Source: Caldalkalibacillus uzonensis
Lineage (GTDB): Bacteria > Bacillota > Bacilli > Caldalkalibacillales > Caldalkalibacillaceae
Direction of reading: 5' to 3'
DNA: 64,000 bases
NCBI RefSeq assembly: GCF_030814135.1
Contig: NZ_JAUSUQ010000007.1
Span: 1-64,000, forward strand
Each line of letters starts with the position of its first letter. The stretch's first letter is position 1. Under the pieces are notes generated by a model. That model was given only the letters and a program-made list of their open reading frames with translations. It made no database searches and had not been told where the DNA came from. The position numbers were made by a program, and so were the translations under genes. Positions 45,813-47,463 of this stretch are shown piece by piece.

Positions 45813-46903
45813 TAACGTCCCCTCCGGCCGGCGATAAATTCCTGCACCATTTTTTTGCTTTCCGTATCAGTATATTGAACCGGTGGTGATTTCATGGTGT
45901 AAGAGGAGATGGATGTCAACACACCGCCAATCTTGCGGTCCAAGGCCAGTTTCATGCAGCGGATGGCGTCAATCATCGAACCTGCGCTGTTAGGGGAGTC
46001 TTCCACAGACAGTTTGACTTCCAAAGTTAAAGGCACGTTGCCGAAGCCGCGGCCTTCCATGCGGATATAGGCGATTTTATTGTCGTTCAGCCAAGGAATG
46101 TAATCACTGGGTCCAATATGAATGTTATGTTTGTCCAGGGGTGTCTCCAGCTCAGATTGTACCGATTGTGTTTTTGATTTTTTCTTCGACTTCAATCTGC
46201 TGCGGTTCAGCATGTTCAAGAAGTCGGTGTTTCCGCCGAAGTTGAGCTGGTAAGTACGGTCGAGCACAACGCCCCGGTTTTCAAACAGTTTAGTCAGGGT
46301 GCGGTGGACAATGGTGGCTCCCACCTGGCTTTTGATGTCATCGCCAATGATCGGCAGATTTTTTTCCTCAAATTTTTTAGCCCATGTTTCATCGGAAGCG
46401 ATAAAGACAGGAATGGCGTTAATGAAGCCCACATTCGCTTCCAGGCAAGCTTGGGCGTAATGCTTGGCTGCTTCTTCAGAACCGACGGGCAGGTAACAAA
46501 TCAGCATGTCTGCGCCGCTTTCTTTTAACACCTTGGTCACGTCGCAAGGTTCCTCATCAGCGACGATAAAGGCTTTATCCTCATCATCTTCCGCCATCAG
46601 TTCAGATACGCCATCCAGCACAGGACCCATGTGCACCTTTACTGGATAATCGGGCAAGTTCTCATAAAAAACAGTGGTGCAGTTTGGCTCGGCAAAAATG
46701 GCTTCTTTCAACGGTTGGCCTACTTTGCGCTTGTCCACGTCAAAGGCGGCGACAACATTAATATCTCCTGGTTTGTAACCGCCCAGGTCATGGTTCATCA
46801 GCCCGATGGTATTGTCGGGAACATTTTTGTACATTTCGATTCCCTGCAGCAACGCGCTGGCACAGTTACCTACACCTGCAATGGCGATGTTAATTTTGCC
46901 CAT
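45812..46903 (-). CDS. myo-Inositol-1-phosphate synthase
   Basis: The 363-residue NAD-dependent enzyme converts glucose 6-phosphate to L-myo-inositol 1-phosphate. It shows the Rossmann motif AIAGVGNCASALLQGIE, DINVVAAFDVDKRKVG, KHYAQACLEANVGFINAIPV, GDDIKSQVGATIVHR and NFGGNTDFLNM, the archaeal/actinobacterial-type synthase pattern. The start MGKINIAIAG follows GGAGGG by 7 bases; the longer frame lacks a site. First gene of a two-gene operon with the IPCT/DIPPS fusion, preceded by a structured leader and CIRCE-like operator. Such enzymes are uncommon in Bacillales. Confidence 0.92.
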   Translation of the reverse strand: MGKINIAIAGVGNCASALLQGIEMYKNVPDNTIGLMNHDLGGYKPGDINVVAAFDVDKRKVGQPLKEAIFAEPNCTTVFYENLPDYPVKVHMGPVLDGVSELMAEDDEDKAFIVADEEPCDVTKVLKESGADMLICYLPVGSEEAAKHYAQACLEANVGFINAIPVFIASDETWAKKFEEKNLPIIGDDIKSQVGATIVHRTLTKLFENRGVVLDRTYQLNFGGNTDFLNMLNRSRLKSKKKSKTQSVQSELETPLDKHNIHIGPSDYIPWLNDNKIAYIRMEGRGFGNVPLTLEVKLSVEDSPNSAGSMIDAIRCMKLALDRKIGGVLTSISSYTMKSPPVQYTDTESKKMVQEFIAGRRGR

Positions 46904-46988
46904 CAATAATCCCTCCTGACATATTTTAATGATTGGAATTGTGTTGCAGGTTGCGGCACCACCCTCCTTGCGTTTAGCATTTTTGCTC

Positions 46989-47014
46989 AAAAAAAAATCC
47001 CGCTGTAGGCGGGA
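46989..47014 (-). terminator. Leader terminator before the inositol-phosphate synthase gene
   Basis: On the minus strand TCCCGC-CTACA-GCGGGA is followed by nine T. It lies about 85 bases before the start codon, inside the leader, so it must act as an attenuator. Confidence 0.9.
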
Positions 47015-47160
47015 GTGTTTAAGGCAGCATGGTGAGCTGCCGGGTTAGCATGTTTTCAGCAGGAAAGATACACTCCCCAAGCATTACCTGAATACAGATC
47101 TGCTTATCTCATCAGAGGCACTTTCCAGGTTGCTGAAACTCGAACCATTTTCGTATTTTT
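47015..47160 (-). ncRNA. Candidate riboswitch or attenuator RNA of unknown class
   Basis: On the minus strand a long helix forms: GGTT/AACC, then UUUCAGCA/UGCUGAAA (47131-47138 with 47054-47061), a one-sided ACCU bulge, and GGAAAG/CUUUCC (47121-47126 with 47062-47067), capped by a large loop. A GGCAGC/GCTGCC hairpin (47023-47041) follows. GGGGAGTGT in the loop edge (47070-47078) is complementary to ACACTCCC (47011-47018), which overlaps the terminator's 5' arm, so antiterminator and terminator are exclusive. No T-box, SAM, lysine, TPP or cobalamin signature is seen. Confidence 0.6.
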
Positions 47161-47161
47161 G

Positions 47162-47188
47162 TTAGCACTCACTAAGTTTTGCTGCTAA
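47162..47188 (-). promoter_or_regulatory. CIRCE-like operator (HrcA type), one arm degenerate
   Basis: The consensus is TTAGCACTC-N9-GAGTGCTAA. Here one arm is perfect (TTAGCACTC, 47162-47170), the spacer is exactly 9, and the other arm is TGCTGCTAA (47180-47188), matching 6 of 9 at the outer end. It starts 2 bases downstream of the -10 box, the normal CIRCE position. It suggests heat-shock control of the inositol operon. Confidence 0.6.
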
Positions 47189-47190
47189 CA

Positions 47191-47218
47191 ATTATACAGA
47201 AAAATTATCCAATTGCAA
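47191..47218 (-). promoter_or_regulatory. Promoter of the inositol operon
   Basis: On the minus strand -35 TTGCAA (47213-47218) and -10 TATAAT (47191-47196) are 16 bases apart. Transcription would begin within the CIRCE-like element. Confidence 0.7.
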
Positions 47219-47463
47219 GTCCTAATTTTTATTTTTTTGGGATAGAGAAGGAAGTACAGCTAAACTTAAGTATTTAGAATATTTTATTTATTATGATTTT
47301 GATATTATTTTCCTTGTCCCCCTGCTCTATTTGTGGTACATTAAAAAAGTGATTTGAAATCTAGCAGGCCAAAGTGCCTTGTTGATAGATTATACCTTTA
47401 TTCAAGTTTTGCCTATCTGCTATTGTTAAATGAATCTGAGATGAATATGGGGCGGGAGATAAC
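47219..47463. other. AT-rich divergent intergenic region
   Basis: No gene is visible. The region must hold the promoter of the M23 peptidase gene on the plus strand; I cannot place it with confidence. GGGGCGGGAG precedes the peptidase start. Confidence 0.4.

Follow-up and report, generated by a model that had tools for sequence, protein, structure and literature searches.

The window, i.e. the whole 64,000-nucleotide stretch of the Caldalkalibacillus uzonensis genome analysed here, carries on its minus strand an operon with ino1 and a gene coding for an IPCT/DIPPS fusion protein, preceded by a leader with several recognizable parts. From the promoter to the second gene, these features are:

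47218-47191, minus strand: sigma-70-type promoter, TTGCAA-16 nt-TATAAT, the sole promoter-like site in 46850-47450
47188-47162, minus strand: CIRCE-like HrcA operator, TTAGCAGCA-AAACTTAGT-GAGTGCTAA, overlapping the predicted transcription start
47138-47054, minus strand: P1, the putative sensor hairpin, with lower stem UUUCAGCA (47138-47131)/UGCUGAAA (47061-47054), one-sided ACCU bulge (47130-47127), GGAAAG (47126-47121)/CUUUCC (47067-47062), and upper stem UGC/GUA plus CUCU/GGAG
47078-47070, minus strand: strand S1, GGGGAGUGU, able to pair either within P1 or in the antiterminator
47041-47036 / 47028-47023, minus strand: accessory hairpin GGCAGC/GCUGCC, seen in the window's genus only (the window and the sister species G001)
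47018-47011, minus strand: strand S2, ACACUCCC, the 5' arm of the terminator and complement of S1
47014-46998 (stem) and 46997-46989 (T9), minus strand: intrinsic terminator TCCCGC-CTACA-GCGGGA followed by nine T
46903-45812, minus strand: ino1, L-myo-inositol-1-phosphate synthase (MIPS), 363 aa, with ATG at 46903
45812-44478, minus strand: IPCT/DIPPS fusion gene, bifunctional CTP:inositol-1-phosphate cytidylyltransferase and CDP-alcohol phosphotransferase

The ino1 product matches Pfam PF01658 (E 4e-37), and its closest solved structure is PDB 1gr0 (E 1e-120). The fusion protein shows matches to PF00483 and PF01066, while its residues 1-420 match PDB 4mnd, the bifunctional CTP:inositol-1-phosphate cytidylyltransferase/DIPP synthase of Archaeoglobus (E 2e-57); in related genomes its gene occurs together with ino1. 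As judged from their sequences, the two are the key enzyme pair of di-myo-inositol-phosphate (DIP) synthesis, with MIPS and IPCT/DIPPS found side by side as expected of a DIP operon. By homology, the predicted pathway leads from inositol-1-phosphate to DIP or its phosphate, and the operon probably makes a heat-protective sugar phosphate. DIP builds up in hyperthermophiles under heat stress (PMC1224877), and in P. furiosus myo-inositol-1-phosphate synthase is heat-shock-induced (log2FC 4.0; PMC10746257). An ino1 at least 76% identical to that of the window is present in just 5 of 399 sampled Bacilli, yet the window Ino1 is 86% identical to the protein of a Thermosediminibacterales MAG; thus, the operon and its control region likely spread laterally.

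An earlier note on this DNA, which described the leader as a candidate riboswitch or attenuator, mentioned neither the promoter nor the CIRCE operator. The promoter scan proves nothing by itself, as shuffled sequences average 1.7 sites; the call is supported by the position of the promoter immediately upstream of the CIRCE site. The operator comes immediately downstream of the predicted -10 box, TATAAT, and agrees with the inverted repeat TTAGCACTC-N9-GAGTGCTAA at 15 of 18 positions, with the correct 9-bp spacer, a perfect right half-site and 6 of 9 positions in the left half. Across the 3.88-Mb genome, which encodes hrcA, the CIRCE pattern recovers three sites in all (0 matches for a reversed control), and the other two, both perfect, are located ahead of hrcA-grpE and groES-groEL. 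The pattern sites of genome G311 lie ahead of groESL, hrcA-grpE-dnaK and htpG. When leaders of close ino1 genes (protein identity of at least 74%) were scanned, a CIRCE-like site (at most 5 mismatches of 18) was detected in 18 of 28, versus 0 of 89 leaders of distant ino1 genes, and no shuffled leader reached 4 mismatches or fewer. All 17 leaders with a P1-type hairpin have such a site. The ino1 operators of many genomes show one perfect half-site, with the other, left one usually degraded to TTAGCAGCn; perhaps this confers a weaker HrcA affinity and hence a different set-point. The arrangement corresponds to that of the class I HrcA/CIRCE regulon of Gram-positive bacteria in its 27-bp operator, 9-bp spacer, perfect right half-site and overlap with the start; whereas the usual targets of that regulon are chaperones, the target here is a solute biosynthesis operon and the left half-site is degraded. 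A variant arrangement is seen in the leaders L006 and L007 (genomes G027 and G045), where CIRCE does not cover the start but precedes the promoter, and has the inverted order TTAGCACTC...GGCTGCTAA; no intrinsic terminator was found in these two leaders, and G027 has an additional perfect CIRCE a further 2.5 kb off.

The structural elements recognized in the earlier note, i.e. the bulged helix, the GGCAGC hairpin, the terminator with nine T and the antiterminator pairing, are all present in the minus-strand transcript. S1 and S2 are complementary over 8 bp; of 2000 shuffled versions of the window leader, 10 contain a perfect 8-nt complement of the terminator arm. The folding energy of the leader is -58.5 kcal/mol, as against -45.9 kcal/mol for dinucleotide shuffles (z = -2.96; 2 of 200 shuffles). 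The long bulged lower helix, the ACCU bulge and the GGCAGC hairpin were seen in the window's genus alone.

Between the terminator and ino1 is an extended Shine-Dalgarno-like sequence, AAGGAGGGUGGUG (46969-46957, minus strand), far from the start codon and with no conserved ORF; the same region of L005, L022, L104, L117-L119, L203, L204 and L206 has the Shine-Dalgarno-like AAAGGAGGUGA. Sequences of this kind resemble the mRNA-stabilising STAB-SD elements. The ino1 start is overlapped by a short ORF (GTGGTGCCGCAACC...), which is not conserved, since it stops after three codons in G001. Elsewhere, the window has an M-box magnesium riboswitch (7958-7792, minus strand), a purine riboswitch (10177-10076, minus strand) and two Bacillaceae-1 RNAs beside the 16S rRNA end (504-296, minus strand).

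Comparison with the leaders of close ino1 genes from Clostridia MAGs and Bacilli revealed a characteristic architecture: the order CIRCE, P1, antiterminator, terminator and ino1 is common to 17 leaders. In the relatives, CIRCE is followed by P1, with S1 (GGGAGUG) as its 3' arm, and then by a linker, by S2 (CACUCCC) and by S3 (GGGAGUG, then U). With an alignment of 13 leaders, RNAalifold returned the S1:S2 antiterminator unprompted. In 14 model-aligned leaders, pairing in P1 plus terminator amounts to 91%; both partners have changed in 9 of the pairs, and 0 of 500 shuffles reach the pairing or the covariation score. These counts favour this structure because the alignment was fitted to it. The antiterminator, which was outside the fitted structure, is paired in 98% of cells in the same 14 leaders (0 of 500 shuffles). 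Thus, antiterminator and terminator are kept with compensatory changes, and the covariation of the stems in related leaders supports the attenuator that the earlier note had proposed. Both S1 and S3 co-vary with S2: in L105 the three strands read GGAAGU/CGCUUCC/GGAAGC, in L106 S1 and S3 each have a G facing the same U, and in L206 (GGGGGUUUUU/AAAAACUCCC) S1 and S3 again follow S2. The P1 arm CUUCU and the GGGAG of S1 are nearly invariant, two wobble positions included, and P1 always pairs with S1 partly through G-U wobbles, of which two have nearly fixed positions. This RNA element is conserved in ino1 leaders and missing from Rfam. As a variation on the same theme, L203 (about 1500-1710) has tandem terminators ahead of ino1, GGGAGUAUUUUUUUU followed by CUCCCGAUUCUCGGGAGUUAUUUUUUU, an arrangement suggestive of a duplicated attenuator.

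A covariance model (R1), from which CIRCE and coding sequence were both absent, was used to search 398 genomes of another Firmicutes phylum. It recovered 7 matches at E<1e-6, namely 3 training members and 4 new ones, and all 4 of the latter sit between a CIRCE-like site and an ino1 79-82% identical to that of the window; two matches at E about 5e-5 are located away from ino1. Where 20 genomes were searched whole, the strong matches were ino1 leaders only and the weaker ones that were inspected were ordinary terminators. The leader type therefore recurs ahead of ino1 in Firmicutes when sought by covariance, as the earlier note had suggested doing, though a model built without the window leader scores the window itself, its best match and in the right place, at a non-significant 14.3 bits (E 2.4). 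Given this score and that of L005 (E 0.03), the Bacilli leaders (the window, G001 and L005) are diverged, and their apparent kinship with the clostridial core is grounded in the same operon, CIRCE, order of elements and three-strand logic of S1 and S2 rather than in the model score.

We propose, as a reasonably probable interpretation, that the leader region forms a control unit with two layers, linked to heat shock, for an operon producing a DIP-type solute. In the first layer, HrcA would repress initiation via the CIRCE variant, jointly with groESL and hrcA-dnaK, and would release it under protein-folding stress; the operator is evident from its sequence and genomic company, and the binding of HrcA is predicted from these. 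In the second layer, whose architecture emerges from the comparison of leaders and whose action is deduced from it, the off state would arise when P1 forms first and hides S1, so that the S2:S3 terminator forms and transcription stops. In the on state, with P1 unformed or opened, S1 would capture S2 before S3 is made, thereby pre-empting the terminator and allowing ino1 and IPCT/DIPPS to be transcribed. As P1 pairs with S1 via G-U wobbles, it is predicted to be weaker than the Watson-Crick antiterminator, and the likeliest trigger for its opening would be either high temperature as such or some factor available under heat. Because unrelated Firmicutes have both the operator and the switch in front of these two genes, the operon appears to form part of the heat-shock response. 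A precedent for the second layer is presented by the terminator/antiterminator attenuators (1:2 plus 3:4 versus 2:3), with which the 17 leaders share the mutual exclusion of P1 plus terminator and antiterminator; the ino1 leader differs from these in having no leader peptide, aptamer or Rfam family, the predicted sensor being a bare wobble hairpin.

Equilibrium folding with ViennaRNA of truncated transcripts ending just after S2 predicts for 13 of the 17 leaders a crossover, at 34-82 C (68 C for the window), from P1 to the antiterminator, and the predicted crossover is lost in 12 of these 13 when the wobbles are replaced by Watson-Crick pairs. In the remaining leaders (L104, L106, L203 and L206) the antiterminator is predicted to be favoured at all temperatures. 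This pattern fits a heat-opened switch, though a similar one would be expected of any switch whose sensor is weak, and for a heat switch the folding of the terminator would itself need to withstand heat. The window organism appears thermophilic: the 5' part of its 16S rRNA has 58% GC, and an IVYWREL estimate, rough and drawn from 29 proteins, gives about 69 C. A tracking of thermophily by the P1 set-point is contradicted by G406, the one mesophile-like genome (16S with 53% GC) among the few for which a 16S was found, yet with a predicted crossover at 74 C. Known RNA thermometers mostly mask the ribosome binding site. The ino1 leaders share with the zipper-like thermometers a G-U-rich hairpin predicted to open on heating; their output would instead be transcription termination, and their predicted set-points do not track thermophily.

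In light of the four non-switching leaders and the set-point of G406, direct RNA thermosensing by P1 is put forward tentatively, at rather less than an even chance, and a trans-acting factor is its main rival. The fuller version, in which P1 is a true RNA thermosensor with antitermination output that acts with HrcA to turn on synthesis of a thermoprotective solute and has been exchanged, together with its operon, between clostridial lineages and Bacilli, is more doubtful still. Under the rival explanation, an RNA-binding protein or small RNA would bind to S1 or P1 and might serve as a readout of ionic status or inositol phosphate, and HrcA alone would report heat. Such a second input beside HrcA makes regulatory sense, and both the near-invariance of CUUCU and GGGAG with their two wobble positions and the scatter of the predicted thermal set-points could be read in its favour. 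However, the triple pairing duty of S1 accounts for its conservation, the sequences of apex and lower stem are variable, and no conserved unpaired motif for a protein was seen, so that we regard such a factor as unlikely.

Improbable to a greater degree is an unregulated partial terminator combined with an mRNA-stabilising hairpin, whereby the S1/S2 complementarity would be a by-product and HrcA the sole regulator. The leader's regulation is indeed known only by prediction, and L025, L006 and L007 carry CIRCE with the attenuator absent; but S1 follows S2 via compensatory and wobble changes across diverged phyla, and the new strong matches of the blind search place the element only at the ino1 operon.

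The two-layer unit with a bare hairpin as its sensor is also to be set against a ligand-binding riboswitch responsive to inositol, inositol phosphate or a sugar phosphate, as entertained in the earlier note, which we consider very improbable. The terminator/antiterminator logic ahead of a biosynthetic gene would suit it, as would the lack of a known class, which the earlier note had correctly anticipated: an Rfam scan of the leader gave no match at the gathering score or at a plausible E-value, down to noise. The relatives, however, do not support it: in L109, L112, L203 and L205, P1 is a plain, near-perfect hairpin interrupted by a single mismatch or bulge and closed by a loop of 2-4 nt. The length and sequence of the apex differ among the leaders compared, with no conserved unpaired pocket. 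These tiny loops and the unconserved apex leave no room for a shared ligand pocket, making a shared aptamer impossible, and the bulged helix with its ACCU bulge was seen in the window's genus only. Thermosensing, a side guess of the earlier note, is the better lead of the two, given that a heat-shock operator is also present at the operon. Hardly credible at all are ribosome-stalling attenuation via the 14-codon ORF across the window P1 (MVRVSATWKVPLMR), which is excluded as a shared mechanism since 0 of 17 leaders have a Shine-Dalgarno-bearing ORF across P1 and the window ORF is not conserved, and a T-box reading of the T-box-like GGAGGGUGGUGCCGC after the window terminator, rejected since the Rfam T-box model gives no match up to E 10 and the string is broken in G001.

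A second type of ino1 leader, without CIRCE, was encountered in four clostridial MAGs (L117:1247-1381; L118:2732-2876, minus strand; L119:1238-1374; L030:67-214). It has a long multi-part stem (GCAAACUGCAACAGGCAG / GUGUCGUUGUAUUUUGC) around a conserved unpaired UGCWGCAUGUUUUGGAAGUG, followed by an attenuator, and resembles a riboswitch aptamer much more closely than does the window leader. No Rfam match was found for the three of the four that were scanned. The type is rare: in a search of 398 genomes its model recovered only 1 of its 4 source leaders.

A co-regulation of DIP synthesis with the heat-shock genes, as proposed here for Firmicutes, appears to be new. Among the open-access papers that were searched for by subject, none has a title or abstract describing HrcA/CIRCE with an inositol-phosphate synthase, a heat-driven terminator/antiterminator switch, or DIP in Firmicutes. 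A parallel is offered by the Phr-regulated heat-shock genes of P. furiosus, where there is likewise a heat-induced myo-inositol-1-phosphate synthase beside a repressor-controlled chaperone regulon (PMC10746257); Phr is an unrelated archaeal repressor, and HrcA/CIRCE would do the same job independently in Firmicutes. If the proposal of a two-layer control unit is true, a small-molecule thermoprotectant would join the classical HrcA chaperone regulon of Firmicutes, in parallel with hyperthermophilic archaea, in which the inositol-1-phosphate synthase is induced by heat. The leader would then offer a compact candidate for heat control through transcription termination, and DIP or a relative of it would be predicted in Bacilli and Clostridia.
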